The translations under genes and the position numbers were made by a program. Below are positions 4,821 to 46,386 of a stretch of 64,000 nt of DNA, in pieces; positions within the stretch are counted from its first letter, which is position 1, and every line of letters starts with the position of its first letter. The notes below the pieces were generated by a model. It saw only the letters and a list, made by a program, of their open reading frames with translations. It was not told where the DNA came from and did not search any database. The stretch comes from Nocardioidaceae bacterium (GTDB lineage Bacteria; Actinomycetota; Actinomycetes; Propionibacteriales; Nocardioidaceae). Location of the stretch: positions 1 through 64,000 of the forward strand of contig JAURVT010000050.1 of assembly GCA_030655315.1 (NCBI GenBank), read 5' to 3'.

Positions 4821-4943
4821 GGGCGCCAGTCTCGTGCCGCCGGAGCCGCCCCGCTGATCGACCCGATCACGACCGGACGTCCTGACAAAGTACGATGGTC
4901 CTCGGTCCCGCTGGGGGACCGAACCGCTCCTCGAAGGTGTCTC

Positions 4944-5111
4944 GTGACCTCCCTGCTGATCGTCCTCCTGGTCGTCGCCGTCCTCGCCGCGCTCACCGCG
5001 CCGGCCGTCCTCGTCGGCCGCCACCGCCGCCCCGCCCCCTGGTCGGCGCAGGACCGCATCGGCGTCGCCCCCGACGCCTTCGACGACGACCGCGCCGCGC
5101 ACGCCGGCTGA
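4944..5111 (+). CDS. small single-pass membrane protein, 55 aa
   Basis: The GTG at 4944 follows GAAGG. The protein has one N-terminal membrane helix (LLIVLLVVAVLAALTAPAVL, residues 4-23), then a basic stretch (GRHRRPAPW) and a short soluble tail. A cytoplasmic positive patch after the helix predicts an N-out orientation. No family recognised. It is likely real because of the ribosome site, the clean hydrophobic segment and its lack of overlap with other genes. Confidence 0.55.
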   Translation: MTSLLIVLLVVAVLAALTAPAVLVGRHRRPAPWSAQDRIGVAPDAFDDDRAAHAG

Positions 5112-5508
5112 CCCTCTCCTGGCTCTTCCTCCTGACCGGCCCTGTCGAGGGGTGGGGTTCCTGCCCGGACCTTCCCGCCCTGGTCGGCGGGGGAGTGCGC
5201 GGCGAGGTCTCGGTCTGCGAGACGAACCGCCTGTTTGTCGGAGCTGACCGTGGCAGACGGCGCGAAGCACTGCCCTGGGCGGGGTGGCCGGCCCCGCCAT
5301 GGGCCGGGGCTCAGCCCGGACCTTCCCGCCGTGAGGGGCGGGGAAGTGCGCAGCGAGGACGGCGGGTGGGTCTGCCCGCGTCGAAGCGCGGGTCGGTGTC
5401 TCGGTCTGCGAGACGAACCGCCTCGGCGTCGGAGCTGACCGTGGCAAACCGCGCGAAACACGGCATATTCACCACGGTCAGCGCCTGCTTGCCACGGTCG
5501 CTGTGACT

Positions 5509-5879
5509 GGTGGGGCTGTGGGGACCGGCCGTCTCACCTGACGAGATCCCGCCCCGTGAGGCCTGCTCCCGACCGCGGCCGCCGCCCGCTCCGTCCTCGC
5601 TGCGCCTTTGGCCGACCATTGCGGCGAGCGCGACCGGCGGCCACCGTCGCGCTCGGGTGGCCGGCCCCGCCATGGGTCGGGGCTCAGCCCGGACCCCCGG
5701 CCATCGGCGGCGGGGAAGTGCGCAGCGAGGACGGCGGGTGGGGCTGCTGGCTCTAGGTGCGGGCCTGCGTCTCGGTCTGCGAGACGAACCACCCGTCCGC
5801 CAGAGCTGACCGTGCCAAACAGCACGCAACACGGCATATTCACCACGGTCGGCGCCTGTTTGCCACGGTCGCTGTGACT
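5509..5879. repeat. 371-bp repeat unit, copy A
   Basis: A full unit ending in CTGTGACT. In order it holds a CTCACCTGACGAGATCCCGC segment, a GC-rich middle (CCGGCCCCGCCATGGGTCGG), a GGGGAAGTGCGCAGCGAGGA segment, the short palindrome TCTCGGTCTGCGAGA and a 63-bp inverted-repeat core. Confidence 0.8.
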
Positions 5880-6250
5880 CGTGGGGTTGTCGGGATCCGC
5901 CGTCTCACCTGACGAGATCCCGCCCCATGAGGTCTGCTCCCGACCGCGGCCGCCGCCCGCTCCGTCCTCGCTGCGTCCTTGGCCGACCATCACGGCGAGC
6001 GCGACCGGCGGCCACCGTCGCGCTCGGGTGGCCGGCCCCCGCCATGGGTCGGGTCTCAGCCCGGCCCCCCGCCATGGGGGGCGGGGAAGTGCGCAGCGAG
6101 GACGGCGGGTGGGGCTGCTGGCTGTCAGGTGCGGCCACCGTCTCGGTCTGCGAGACGAACCGCCTTACCGCTGAAGCTGACCGTGGCAAACAGCGCGAAA
6201 CACGGCATATTCACCACGGTCAGCGCCTGTTTGCCACGGTCGCTGTGACT
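5880..6250. repeat. 371-bp repeat unit, copy B
   Basis: The second full unit, directly adjoining copy A and in the same order and orientation, also ending in CTGTGACT. It differs from copy A by scattered point changes and small compensating insertions or deletions in the GC-rich middle. Confidence 0.8.
6179..6241. repeat. 63-bp inverted-repeat core of repeat unit (also at 5437-5499 and 5808-5870)
   Basis: The left arm GACCGTGGCAAACAGCGC and right arm GCGCCTGTTTGCCACGGTC are inverted repeats around an AT-richer centre (CACGGCATATTCACCACGG). The same structure sits at the end of each 371-bp unit, 371 bp apart. It could form a strong RNA hairpin or DNA cruciform. Function unknown. Confidence 0.75.
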
Positions 6251-6388
6251 CGTGGGGCTGTCGAGATCCGCTGTCTCACCCGTCGAGACCGAGCCCGCGC
6301 CGACCTCGCTGCGCTCTTCCCCACCTACCCGGCAGTGGCCGGCTGGTCCGCGCGGCGCACCCCCTCAGGCCCGCACCGAGGGTTGGGC

Positions 6389-6649
6389 TCAGGACCCGTC
6401 GTCGAAGGCCTGGCGCAGCCGCTCGCGGGCGCAGCGCTCGGTGAGCTCTGGACGGTCCGCGGGCGGCACCGAGGAGAGGTCGAGCGCGCACTGGCGGACG
6501 GTCGTGGTGATCTCGGTGGTGGTGAACCGGTCACCGAGCTCGACGACGAGGCGTCGCACGGTGTCGTCGAGATGGCCGGAGGAGCGCTCGAAGTCGGCGC
6601 GGGCGCCGTCGTGCTCATCCCTGCTGTCCTGCGTGTCCTGGGTGTCCAT
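6389..6649 (-). CDS. three-helix bundle domain protein, 86 aa
   Basis: The ATG at 6649 gives an 86-residue acidic protein. After a hydrophilic N-terminus (MDTQDTQDSRDEHDG) the rest is helical with the pattern DTVRRLVVELGDRF, ITTTVRQCALDL and LTERCARERLRQAF. This resembles the three-helix bundle dimerisation domain found alone, or fused to arsenate-reductase-like proteins, in actinobacteria. No catalytic residues are apparent. It is divergent from the downstream SDR gene and is the first gene after the tandem repeat block. Confidence 0.6.
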   Translation of the reverse strand: MDTQDTQDSRDEHDGARADFERSSGHLDDTVRRLVVELGDRFTTTEITTTVRQCALDLSSVPPADRPELTERCARERLRQAFDDGS

Positions 6650-6883
6650 CCGGCTCTCTGCCTCACGGTCTCGCCGCCCGGCCAGGTGCCGGGCAGGGGG
6701 AGGTGGACGGCTCCGGGTCGAACCGTGGTCCACGATACCCACCCCGGTGGGCGGACCTACGCGCTTCGTCGTGCCGAACGGCCGAGGCTGCCTACCGTGG
6801 AAGAGGTCCGACCTCCTGCCACAGATGGGCCCCGGCGTGAGCCACCTCCCCGCCACCTCCACCGCAGCGGACGCCCGCTCGTG

Positions 6884-9944: not shown

Positions 9945-11981
<2,037 letters not shown>

Positions 11982-12052
11982 GATCAGCAGTATGGGCTGA
12001 GGCACTGACGGCCACCGATCACGCGAGGTGCGTCACACCCCGGTGTCGCGGG

Positions 12053-12673: not shown

Positions 12674-12700
12674 GCCCTTCCTTCGACATCCCTGCCTTGG

Positions 12701-12721
12701 TAGAATCGAGCATACGTTCGA
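12701..12721 (+). promoter_or_regulatory. LexA-type SOS box overlapping a -10 element
   Basis: TCGAGCATACGTTCGA at 12706-12721 matches the mycobacterial SOS box form TCGAAC-N4-GTTCGA at all but one position. It overlaps the 3' end of TAGAAT (12701-12706), a good -10 hexamer, and is followed by the GGAGGA ribosome site and the ATG at 12739. Repression by LexA at such a site would block transcription until DNA damage. Confidence 0.7.
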
Positions 12722-12738
12722 CTCACGGAGGACCTGTC

Positions 12739-14058
12739 ATGACCGTCTCTGCTCTCCCGCTCACCGAGCACCCCGCGTTCGCGGTGCTGGTCGCGGTCGA
12801 GGGCGCGCTCGCCGCGGGTGGTGACCTGTCGGTCTACGAGGGTCTGTCGGCCCAGGACGCGGTGACGCTCGCGGGGCGGTGGAGCCGGGTGAACTCCCGC
12901 GTGGCCGCGCATGCGATGGCCGCGACGCGGTCGGTGGACCGGTCGGGTGCTGCCAGGAAGGCCGGCTCGTCCTCGACGGGGTCGCTGCTGGCGAGCCAGT
13001 TCGGTGGCGACCGCCACGCCGCAGCACGGGACGTTCACCTGGGCCGGGCGCTGGAGAGGGCGACGCTGACCGAGCAGGCGCTCGCGGACGGGCTGATCTC
13101 CAAGGAGCAGGCCCGTCTGATCGCCCGGACCATCGCGGGTCTGCCCGACGACATTCCGGCTGAGACGCGCGCGACGTGCGAGCGGGCGCTGATCGAGGAC
13201 GCCCAGACCCTCACCTGGCGCGACCTGCAGTACTGCGCCGACCGGATCAGCGACCTCTTCAGGCCGGTCGAGGACGTCGACGCCGACGAGGGGCGGGCGG
13301 TCCAGGACCGGGAGCGCCTGGCGTACGAGCGGTCCCAGCTGTGGATGCGGGACAACCGCGACGGCACCTGGGGCGGGTCCTTCACCCTCCCCGAAGCGCA
13401 GGCCGGGGCGCTGAAAAGCGCGTTGGACGGGTTCGCAGCACCGCGCCGACGTCACCTCGACGACGGGCAGGGCGACACCGGCCTGACCTACCCCCAGCGC
13501 CAAGGCCGCGCGCTCGTCGCGCTCATCGACCACCTCCCCACCGACGGGTTGCCGGACGCCGGCGGGTCCGGGATGACCGTGACGGTGAACCTGGACCTGC
13601 AGCAGCTCATCGACGGCATCGGCACCGCGACCACGTCCACCGGGCAGCGCATGAGCGCCAGCCAGGTCCGGCTGCACGCCTGCCGAGCCGGGATCATCCC
13701 CCAGGTCCTCGGAGGACAGTCGCTCCCGCTCGACCTCGGCCGCAAGCAACGACTGTTCAGCCCGGCCCAGCGGGTGGCGCTGGCGCACCGGGACCAGGGC
13801 TGCGCGATGCCCGACTGCGACCGGCCACCGTCCTGGTGCGAGGCCCACCACGCCAGAGAACCCTGGGCCCACGGCGGGGCCACGGATCTGGAGGACGGCG
13901 TGCTGCTCTGCGCCTTCCACCACCGGATGATTCACGAGGACGACTGGGTCATCACCTTCGACACCGACGACAGGCGACCCGCGTTCATCCCACCGGCACG
14001 CCTCGACCCGTACCGGCGACCCCGCACCAGCACCCGCTACCGGCCCCGGCGGACGTGA
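12739..14058 (+). CDS. DUF222 / HNH endonuclease (13E12 repeat family)
   Basis: A 439-residue protein with an ATG preceded by GGAGGA. Residues about 20-330 form the helical DUF222 region (LLASQFGGDRHAAARDVHLG, LISKEQARLIARTIAGLP). The C-terminus is an HNH module: CAMPDCDRPPSWCEAHHARE, then HGGATDLEDGVLLCAFHHRM, with four zinc-type Cys residues and the His pair intact. Related 13E12 proteins occur in many copies in actinobacteria and several in mycobacteria sit behind SOS boxes, as here. The likely activity is DNA nicking or cleavage linked to DNA damage or mobility, but the biological role is unknown. Confidence 0.92.
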   Translation: MTVSALPLTEHPAFAVLVAVEGALAAGGDLSVYEGLSAQDAVTLAGRWSRVNSRVAAHAMAATRSVDRSGAARKAGSSSTGSLLASQFGGDRHAAARDVHLGRALERATLTEQALADGLISKEQARLIARTIAGLPDDIPAETRATCERALIEDAQTLTWRDLQYCADRISDLFRPVEDVDADEGRAVQDRERLAYERSQLWMRDNRDGTWGGSFTLPEAQAGALKSALDGFAAPRRRHLDDGQGDTGLTYPQRQGRALVALIDHLPTDGLPDAGGSGMTVTVNLDLQQLIDGIGTATTSTGQRMSASQVRLHACRAGIIPQVLGGQSLPLDLGRKQRLFSPAQRVALAHRDQGCAMPDCDRPPSWCEAHHAREPWAHGGATDLEDGVLLCAFHHRMIHEDDWVITFDTDDRRPAFIPPARLDPYRRPRTSTRYRPRRT

Positions 14059-14770: not shown

Positions 14771-15637
14771 TCAGCTCGCCGAGGGCGCCGCGCTCGGCTT
14801 CGGGGCGTCGGCTCCGGGCTTGGGGGCGTCGGCTCCGGGCTCGGGCGCGTCGGCTCCGGGCTTGGGCGCGTCCGCTCCGGGCTTGGGCGCGTCCGCACCG
14901 GGCTTGGGGGCGTCGGCTCCGGGCTTCGGGGCATCTGCGTCGGCACCGGGCTTGGGGCCGCCATCCTTGGCCGCCGGGCCACCGGCCGGTCCGCAGCCCT
15001 CACGGGCGTCCTCGGGCGGGGCCGGCTTCTCGCCGTCGGCGTCGCTCTTCGGGGCGGGCGGCTCGGGTGCGTCAGCCGGGGGCTTCGGCGCGTCGGCCGG
15101 CGGCTCGGGGGCGTCCGTCGGAGGCGTGGGTGCCTCGCCCTTCTCAGCACCGCCCTTCTCCGCGCCGGCCTTCGGAGTGGGGGGCTTGGGTGCGTCGGCC
15201 GGGAGTTTCGGCGCGTCCTTCTCCTCGCCCTTCCCGGCGCCCTTCTCGGGCGACCCCTGGGGTCCGCCCTCGGGCGGGGCGGGACAGGTGGTGGCGTCCT
15301 CGGACGACTCCTCGCCCTGGCTCGCGTCGTCGCTGGGCGCGGGGGTGGAGTCGCCGCCGCCGGTCTGGACCGACGCCGCGGTCGTGCGGACCGCGTCCGA
15401 GCCGGAGTCACCGCCGGCGATCGCGGGCACGGAGAAGGCCACCACGGCACCGGCGACGGCGAGCGCGGCGAGGCCGCCGGCGAGGCGTCCGCGGGTGGGG
15501 CGGCGGGTCCGTCCCACCGCGGGCAGCTCCGAGGTGGTCACGGTGGCGTCCTGGTCGGTGCGGCCGGCGTCGCGGCGGCGGCCCATCGCGCGCAGCTGGT
15601 CGAGGGGGTTCTTGTCCGAGGTCACGGTGGTCTCCAT
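14771..15637 (-). CDS. membrane-anchored Pro/Ala/Lys-rich repeat protein
   Basis: A 288-residue protein starting at the ATG at 15637. A short cytoplasmic part (LDQLRAMGRRRDAGR) leads to one membrane helix near residues 53-74 (LAGGLAALAVAGAVVAFSVP). The rest is an extracytoplasmic low-complexity tail. It ends in about ten copies of a seven-residue unit, PGADAPK with small changes, encoded by 21-bp direct repeats. Cys residues occur only in TTCPAP and EGCGP. Such tails often span or bind the cell wall. It is divergent from a response regulator, suggesting shared control. No enzymatic domain. Confidence 0.7.
   Translation of the reverse strand: METTVTSDKNPLDQLRAMGRRRDAGRTDQDATVTTSELPAVGRTRRPTRGRLAGGLAALAVAGAVVAFSVPAIAGGDSGSDAVRTTAASVQTGGGDSTPAPSDDASQGEESSEDATTCPAPPEGGPQGSPEKGAGKGEEKDAPKLPADAPKPPTPKAGAEKGGAEKGEAPTPPTDAPEPPADAPKPPADAPEPPAPKSDADGEKPAPPEDAREGCGPAGGPAAKDGGPKPGADADAPKPGADAPKPGADAPKPGADAPKPGADAPEPGADAPKPGADAPKPSAAPSAS
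14772..14960. repeat. 21-bp direct repeats coding for PGADAPK units
   Basis: Successive 21-bp units such as GGGCTTGGGGGCGTCGGCTCC (plus strand) encode the C-terminal heptads of the Pro-rich protein. Slippage here could change the tail length between strains. Confidence 0.75.
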
Positions 15638-36171: not shown

Positions 36172-36192
36172 CACGGGGACCAGCCTTCCACG

Positions 36193-36306
36193 CCCACCCC
36201 TCGTCCGTCGCTCCGCCACCACCCATCCGTCGCTCCGGCCCCACGCCGACGGGGCGGGAGCGACGGACCGGTGGGGCGGGAGCGACGGACGGCGGGGTGG
36301 GGGCGT
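36193..36306. repeat. cruciform-like block of four 12-13-bp repeats
   Basis: TCCGTCGCTCCG occurs at 36204 and 36226, and CGGGAGCGACGGA, its near-inverse, at 36255 and 36277. Together they form a long imperfect palindrome between malQ and the divergent HbhA-like gene. The following CCCGGGCC/GGCCCGGG pair (36321-36349) forms another hairpin. Confidence 0.65.
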
Positions 36307-45220: not shown

Positions 45221-45281
45221 GCCGAGATACGGGTTCTGCACCACGCGACGACGTCCGGTGGTGCAGAAGTCGTATCTCGGC
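45221..45281. repeat. 61-bp palindromic element, copy 1
   Basis: Left arm GCCGAGATACGGGTTCTGCA plus CCAC, right arm its near-inverse ending CGTATCTCGGC, around a 13-base loop. It lies between the rraA start and the DUF4349 stop. Confidence 0.85.
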
Positions 45282-45304
45282 GACTCGGGGAGGGGCGGGG
45301 CGGA

Positions 45305-46180
45305 TCAGGCGGGGGTGGGGCGACGGCGGCGGAGGCGGCGGACGGCGACCACGACGGCCGCGGCGGGCAGGCCGAGGGCGACGACGAAGGGGAGCAGGGC
45401 GCCGACGGCCGTCGTCACCCCAGACCAGGCGGCGGCGAGAGCCGACCACCCGGCGCCGAGGCCGGTCGCGAACCCGGTGGCGTCCTGGGTCGGCGCGGCC
45501 ACGGCGGTCCGCCGGAGCGAGACCTGGACGGTGGCGGTGTCGGTGCGGTCGCGCAGCGAGGCCTGCTGGGCCTGGAGCGACTCCAGCTCGGCCTGACGGG
45601 TGCCGAGCTCGGACTCCAGCCTGATCACGTCACCGATCGCCTGGGCCCGGTCGAGCAGGGCGCGGATGCGACGCAGGCTCGCCTGCGCGCTGGCCACCCG
45701 GCTCTCCACGTCGACCACCTCCTCGGTGACGTCGCGCGCCGTCTGGCGACGGTCGACGACGCGGCCGGCGCCGGCGATGCCCGCCATGGCCTCCTCGAAC
45801 GACGCGGTGGGCACGACGAGCCGCAGCGTCGTCCGGTCGAGGGCGCCGTCGTCGTCGGTGCTGGACCTCTCGTCGGCGACGTAGCCGTCGAGCCCGCCGA
45901 CGACGTCGAGCACCTCGTCGCGAGCCCCCTGGACGTCGGCGGTGCGCACCGCCAGCGAGCCCCGGCGCTCGATCCGGCGCTCGGTCAGCGTCGTGGCCGA
46001 GGCCCCGCCGGAGTCGGACGTCTGCTCGGTGCGGCCACTGCCGCCCGCCTCGGCGTCGGACGCCGCCGCGCCCTCGCTGGAGGCGTCGGAGCCGGCACCG
46101 CTGCAGGCGGTGAGACCGAGGAGCGCGACGGCGAGGAGCGCCGCGGCTTGCAGCCGGCGGGTGGTGGACGGTCGGTTCAT
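45305..46180 (-). CDS. DUF4349 lipoprotein
   Basis: A 291-residue lipoprotein with lipobox LTAC (lipid-bearing Cys near residue 26). A Ser/Gly/Ala linker leads to the DUF4349 region: RRGSLAVRTADVQGARDEVL, LDGYVADERSSTDDD, TTLRLVVPTASFEEAMAGIA and a long coiled coil (SRVASAQASLRRIRALLDRA, LESELGTRQAELESLQAQQA). A C-terminal membrane helix near 255-280 (ALLPFVVALGLPAAAVVVAV) and basic end complete it, so it is held at both ends. Function of the family unknown. Confidence 0.9.
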   Translation of the reverse strand: MNRPSTTRRLQAAALLAVALLGLTACSGAGSDASSEGAAASDAEAGGSGRTEQTSDSGGASATTLTERRIERRGSLAVRTADVQGARDEVLDVVGGLDGYVADERSSTDDDGALDRTTLRLVVPTASFEEAMAGIAGAGRVVDRRQTARDVTEEVVDVESRVASAQASLRRIRALLDRAQAIGDVIRLESELGTRQAELESLQAQQASLRDRTDTATVQVSLRRTAVAAPTQDATGFATGLGAGWSALAAAWSGVTTAVGALLPFVVALGLPAAAVVVAVRRLRRRRPTPA

Positions 46181-46263
46181 GGTGGCCCCCTGGCTGCGGG
46201 TGATCGGTGACGAGGTGTCGGTCCGACGCGGCCGCGGGTGCCCCGGTTCCCGCCCACCGAGTC

Positions 46264-46324
46264 GCCGAGATACGGCTTCTGCACCACGCGTCGCCCGCCG
46301 GTGGTGCAGAACCCGTATCTCGGC
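46264..46324. repeat. 61-bp palindromic element, copy 2
   Basis: Same 24-base arms and 13-base loop as copy 1 (GCCGAGATACGGCTTCTGCA left, CCCGTATCTCGGC right end). It sits in the divergent promoter region between the DUF4349 gene and the aldo/keto reductase. Confidence 0.85.
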
Positions 46325-46386
46325 CACTCGGTGGGGGCGACGGTTGCAGCGTGCGTCGTACCCGACCCCGACCTACGTTGGGCGGC

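Follow-up and report, generated by a model that had tools for sequence, protein, structure and literature searches.

A 371-bp tandem array of mosaic palindromes as one locus of a putative MITE/ERIC-like repeat family in a Nocardioidaceae genome

The window, i.e., the entire 64,000-nucleotide stretch of a Nocardioidaceae genome that was analysed, contains an intergenic gap of 1,277 bp (5112-6388) that a codon-usage gene caller places between two small convergent genes, one encoding 55 aa on the forward strand (4944-5111) and the other 86 aa on the reverse strand (6389-6649), neither with a Pfam match. No coding signal was called within the gap, and PADLOC matched neither of the two flanking proteins, nor a DUF222 protein encoded elsewhere in the window. 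The original prediction of a 371-bp tandem repeat filling a 1.28-kb gap was borne out by Tandem Repeats Finder, whose by far top-scoring array in the window lies at 5282-6288 (period 371, 2.7 copies, 89% matches, score 1594), and by a repeat search, in which the unit start-to-start spacings were exactly 371 and the older partial copies that had been anticipated were found at 5150-5281. With the block search included, the whole array spans 5150-6325 with no assigned strand and consists of the old partial copies followed by three copies at period 371; the start of the extent first proposed (5150-6260) is correct and its end is ~65 bp short, the last right arm (copy 3, GTCTCACCCGTCGAGAC, 6273-6289, forward strand) and an outer block (CGACCTCGCTGCGC, copy 3 right half, 6301-6314, forward strand) lying beyond it.

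Each unit is built around a 63-bp dyad core, as had been claimed, located on the forward strand by the core model and block search at 5437-5499, 5808-5870 and 6179-6241; the third core was also recovered by the repeat search, and its outer arms are perfect over 15 bp. Arm and block searches placed the left palindromic arm GTCTCGGTCTGCGAGAC on the same strand at 5398-5414, 5769-5785 and 6140-6156 in copies 1 to 3 and at 5207-5223 in the older partial copy, which has a truncated core (5246-5273, forward strand) and matches the unit at 81-84% over 5207-5273. The right palindromic arm reads GTCTCACCTGACGAGAT in copies 1 (5531-5547) and 2 (5902-5918), both on the forward strand. Outer blocks CGTCCTCGCTGCGC occupy the left halves of the three copies on the reverse strand (5348-5361, 5720-5733 and 6091-6104) and the right half of copy 1 on the forward strand (5592-5605), the copy 2 right half carrying CGTCCTCGCTGCGT (5963-5976, forward strand). 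Additionally, the block search detected CCGCACCTGACAG, for which the consensus is CCGCACCCGACCG, in the left half of copy 3 (6122-6134, reverse strand), and a degenerate form of the same block, CTGCTCCCGACCG, in the right halves of copies 1 (5563-5575) and 2 (5934-5946) on the forward strand. The linker holds an extra hairpin, CGAGCGCGACCGGCGGCCACCGTCGCGCTCG, at 5625-5655 that is repeated identically at 5996-6026. The inversion runs along the whole element and is not confined to its ends; a 28-nt segment present at 5337-5364, 5709-5736 and 6080-6107 shows 89% complementarity with 6298-6325, which does not fix the exact element termini.

Several other repeats were observed in the window. An inverted-repeat scan of its gaps, run with loop settings that missed the core of the array, revealed a common hairpin, TCTGCACCACGCG...GTGGTGCAGA, in the gaps 45244-45304 and 46180-46386, the latter divergent and with the hairpin extending into a long imperfect inverted repeat. 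The divergent gap at 36191-36305 holds a long GGGAGCGACGGAC-type inverted repeat, each arm of which contains 22-bp tandem units, and 21-bp and 42-bp tandem repeats occur at 14796-14957 within a called gene (14771-15637, reverse strand). A glycogen-debranching-type gene (9945-12005, reverse strand) has its best contig-database matches in Microbacteriaceae (~76%) rather than in Nocardioidaceae, near relatives possibly having been left out of that search.

Beyond the window, the array unit returned 57 matches in its own 4.18-Mb genome. R1, a model of the core, identified 54 distinct core-like places at E <= 1, distributed over 41 intergenic gaps with none in called genes, and the gaps were divided by score and anatomy into two classes. 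Class A comprises ~30 core copies at ~19 intergenic loci that carry the large element found in the window, in gaps of 324-1,349 bp; some of these loci are degenerate, and about half are tandem arrays, with periods of 286, 316, 323, 324, 331, 339, 371 and 573 bp. Between class A loci, homology extends for ~280-340 bp at 66-77%, and the arrays C9 and C27 match at 88% across 624 bp; together these indicate that whole units and arrays were copied between loci. Class B consists of 22 loci with simpler hairpins, mostly in gaps of 83-200 bp and often starting 0-36 bp past a stop codon. Triple palindromes, in which a central 36-40-bp hairpin is flanked by TTTACCACGTGAACGTGGTAAA or TTTACCACGACGTCGTGGTAAAC, occur in class B convergent gaps (e.g., L187, G000:C19:61336-61409, and L192, G000:C24:88878-88953, among L186-L204 and others) and are themselves dispersed sequence families in which each copy keeps its own pairing.

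Across its loci, the class A element is a mosaic palindrome of ~290 bp with two mirror-image halves, each ordered outward from the centre as core arm TTTGCCACGGTC, arm GTCTCGCAGACCGAGAC, CCGCACCCGACCG and CGTCCTCGCTGCGC. A search tolerating mismatches recovered each of the three blocks outside the core arm in 22-23 of 38 halves, some halves being without some blocks, and the CCGCACCCGACCG and CGTCCTCGCTGCGC blocks are also present at other places in the sample. One class A element (L142, G000:C31) carries about three successive copies of the outer blocks CCGCACC...CGTCCTCGCTGCGC in its right half, at a period of ~57 bp. The palindrome GTCTCGN5CGAGAC is close to private to the element, with 17 of its 18 genomic sites inside class A elements. 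On the left, arm and core centres are 61.5-62.5 bp apart at ~12 loci, a variant group having 51.5-52.5 bp, and on the right they are 61-62.5 or 71-72.5 bp apart, giving classes of ~52, ~62 and ~72 bp that step by nearly one helical turn. Preferential conservation of the core and the TCTCG/CGAGA palindrome, part of the original prediction, was confirmed: over 12 loci, mean pairwise identity reached 0.90 in the arm and 0.83-0.87 in the core ends (values inflated because both were found by similarity, a bias that touches neither the spacing nor the near-exclusive presence of the arm in the element) vs. 0.46-0.49 for the left and 0.38 for the right spacers, sequence outside the element being at 0.355, the shuffled level. 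Spacers so much more divergent than the blocks are odd for a young MITE family, suggesting constraint on the blocks.

A search for the unit in its own genome and in relatives, which the original prediction had proposed, gave a divided answer, in that the unit is not confined to this gap and is absent from relatives. Exact class A arms were found in none of 340 other genomes of the family, a sample in which the window genome is the only species of its genus. Core-like palindromes scoring ~31-50 bits were detected in 33 other family genomes and, elsewhere in the order, in three genomes from one other family, the 26 that could be placed lying in convergent (14) and tandem (12) gaps; across 0.7 Mb of further contigs, which are almost all actinobacterial and come from outside the family, the core model scored 21 bits at best. 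Two junctions with informative relatives, at distances too great to fix an insertion site or target duplication to the base, permitted a comparison of gap length. The junction of an Rv2175c-like gene with a polyprenyl synthase gene measures 3-42 bp in relatives with clean calls vs. 701 bp with two units here, and the flhB-flhA junction measures 54-143 bp in most relatives vs. 1,059 bp with two units here. One relative has an flhB-flhA junction of 8 bp and another 557 bp, the latter probably a late start call because coding-like sequence begins earlier. With both junctions short in relatives and long here, gain of the class A element took place in this lineage. The inserted flhB-flhA array (L139, G000:C55) is followed by an flhA leader that bears GGACGG and resembles the leader of the relatives; in many family members (L218-L246), this leader contains two small GGACGG hairpins, GCCAGGACGGC and GCACCACGGACGGTGC, that recall CsrA-type GGA sites, and the window genome retains them downstream of the array.

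The placement of the elements relative to genes raises the alternative that they are bidirectional terminators or 3'-end insulators, in which transcripts of either flanking gene would stop at mirror-symmetric hairpins. Class A gaps are convergent at 9, tandem at 9 and divergent at 1 of 19 loci, and class B gaps are convergent at 16, tandem at 6 and divergent at none of 22 loci, against a background of 21 convergent, 87 tandem and 72 divergent among the other sample gaps of at least 60 bp. Convergent gaps are therefore enriched in class A (p = 0.0004) and class B (p = 2e-9), and divergent gaps are depleted in class A (p = 0.002); 18 of 19 class A and 22 of 22 class B loci adjoin one or more gene 3' ends. 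U-poor hairpin terminators have been reported in GC-rich actinobacteria (PMC8269248, PMC12288462), as have clustered hairpins across many bacteria (PMC8355165), and the proximity of class B hairpins to stop codons, combined with their retained pairing, also speaks for termination. The class A bias fits terminator function and fits equally well an element whose insertions are purged from promoter gaps, and a similar placement bias is known for REP elements elsewhere (PMC3733652). Against termination, one class A locus separates the neighbouring same-strand genes flhB and flhA, the gaps of relatives at the two compared junctions work without the element, and the region 4900-6700 contains no T-tract terminator-like site, i.e., no GC-rich hairpin followed by a U tract. 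The U-poor (I-shaped) terminators resemble class A as mirror-symmetric 3'-end hairpins between convergent genes with no U tract, and class A differs from them in being much longer, conserved in sequence across loci and absent from relatives, in having one array inside flhB-flhA, and in not maintaining pairing copy by copy. A link to a common neighbour gene was rejected, the flanking genes being diverse, as was a link to DUF222/HNH genes, of which the genome has 22 and only one (C22) stands beside an element; the window itself includes a DUF222 gene (13E12-type, HNH-like) at 12697-14058.

The pairing tests bear directly on this alternative. When class A arms were swapped between copies, own arms formed 15.7 of 26 pairs and chimeric arms 16.2 (sd 0.8), so that an arm pairs with its own partner no better than with that of another copy. 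Own pairing was kept in class B (20.3 own vs. 15.9 swapped pairs, sd 1.0) and, strongly so, in the core-like hairpins of other genera (19.4 vs. 14.2, sd 0.3), both sets having been found with a roughly palindromic model that favours palindromes, a bias of which the swap control removes most and perhaps not all. A first compensation statistic had been positive, and its class A signal disappeared after the arm swap with re-optimisation of the centre. Compensating changes that maintain pairing, a feature of intrinsic terminators, are seen in class B and in other genera and not in class A. Since own class A arms have no pairing advantage, what is conserved is sequence and spacing rather than the fold; the original suggestion that structure is under selection finds only partial support, and none as regards a fold. 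Judged from these sequence comparisons, the dyad symmetry of class A derives from conserved sequence, as in a protein-bound site, and class B and its counterparts behave as real hairpins. Overall, termination is considered an unlikely primary role of class A.

Conservation of sequence rather than pairing is what would be expected of a host nucleoprotein site, in which one or more DNA-binding proteins would occupy the core dyad and arms on one face of the DNA and form a chromosome-organising site or a transcription-collision barrier. The near-exclusive occurrence of GTCTCGN5CGAGAC within class A, the arm-core classes about one helical turn apart and the poor conservation of the spacers agree with this idea. 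Nevertheless, as few as two or three ancestral events may account for the spacing classes, the arm and core identities are inflated as described, the lineage restriction is strong and no protein is known to bind these blocks, leaving such a site unlikely. A more specific version, a putative multi-site DNA-protein assembly, seems distinctly improbable: a host protein would have recruited the dyad core and two arms, at ~52, 62 and 72 bp and hence integral helical turns, to ~19 mostly non-promoter gaps, where they would have been tandemly multiplied to serve as chromosome-organising sites or barriers to converging transcription in this genus.

A structured non-coding RNA family encoded by the units is highly improbable. 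Folding of the cores against shuffles, another proposed check, gave a mixed result, with the copy 3 hairpin (6135-6264, forward strand) clearly more stable (z = -4.5) and the other two copies less so (z = -1.6 and -3.0), and this stability is countered by the absence of any Rfam covariance-model match at gathering score in the window, of any promoter-like site found, of an own-arm pairing advantage and of more than slight covariation (a double change in 1 of 12 consensus pairs), as well as by the mirror symmetry of the blocks. That same symmetry, together with the lack of called coding signal, makes a decayed coding gene family, raised as a possible refutation, unlikely. A CRISPR was rejected, in agreement with the original prediction, as the 371-bp units are alike along their whole length instead of being short repeats with unique spacers. 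Phage or plasmid origin was also rejected, with no blastn match in phages or plasmids; the 17-bp arm occurs in three IMG/VR contigs, near the chance level estimated for so large a collection, and these contigs contain no core pattern and no core-model match.

The best reading, to which we assign roughly even chances, is that the array represents one site of a dispersed non-coding repeat family that is lineage-specific and consists of non-autonomous elements of the MITE/ERIC type, mobile now or in the past. It is preferred because it accounts for the dispersion, the mirrored blocks, the lack of coding, the gain in this lineage and the repeated tandem duplication, and the near-absence of class A from divergent gaps is expected if promoter insertions are purged. 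It is weakened by the absence of a Y1 transposase from the genome, by spacers that diverge far more than the blocks and by the degenerate state of some loci. Such an element would have spread through intergenic gaps, about half of its sites later undergoing tandem duplication, with the paired blocks possibly serving as recognition sites of the moving enzyme or of an exploited host protein; we infer transposition as the mode of movement, and likewise any enzyme, its existence as much as its identity. If mobile, the element would add a palindromic family to the Nocardioidaceae, where the literature searched described none, and would show tandem array growth in an otherwise tight genome. The contrast between the classes also separates look-alikes, a dispersed element that conserves sequence without own-arm pairing and small convergent-gap hairpins that keep their pairing here and in relatives, making the terminator question directly testable.

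Among known systems, REP/BIME elements with RAYT share with class A intergenic palindromes that are fewer in divergent gaps and mosaic and tandem arrangements; REP/BIME palindromes are described as commoner in unidirectional and convergent than in divergent gaps and as mosaic or tandem (PMC3733652, PMC2817692). A REP is a palindrome of 20-40 bp with a terminal tetranucleotide tag, GTAG or CGTC (PMC3733652), usually present in more than 100 copies, whereas class A has ~30 copies of an element of ~290 bp whose core measures 63 bp and whose arms measure 17 bp. The search for a cognate transposase, directed at the Y1 family (PF01797), gave no match in the genome, and the REP/RAYT identity was rejected for that reason. 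The enterobacterial intergenic repeats ERIC (127 bp) and YPAL (~168 bp), which have been described as MITE-like (PMC2759123), are closer in being short, non-coding, largely palindromic and dispersed between genes, and class A, with ~290 bp and ~30 cores at ~19 loci, likewise has the MITE character of a short, non-coding, multi-copy dispersed element. It differs from ERIC and YPAL in sequence, lineage and length, in its separate blocks with variable spacers and in its frequent tandem arrays; TA target duplications are a feature of ERIC and YPAL, and the class A insertion sites are not definable to the base with such distant relatives. Class A is most likely a new family within a known general kind of small element that moves or once moved.
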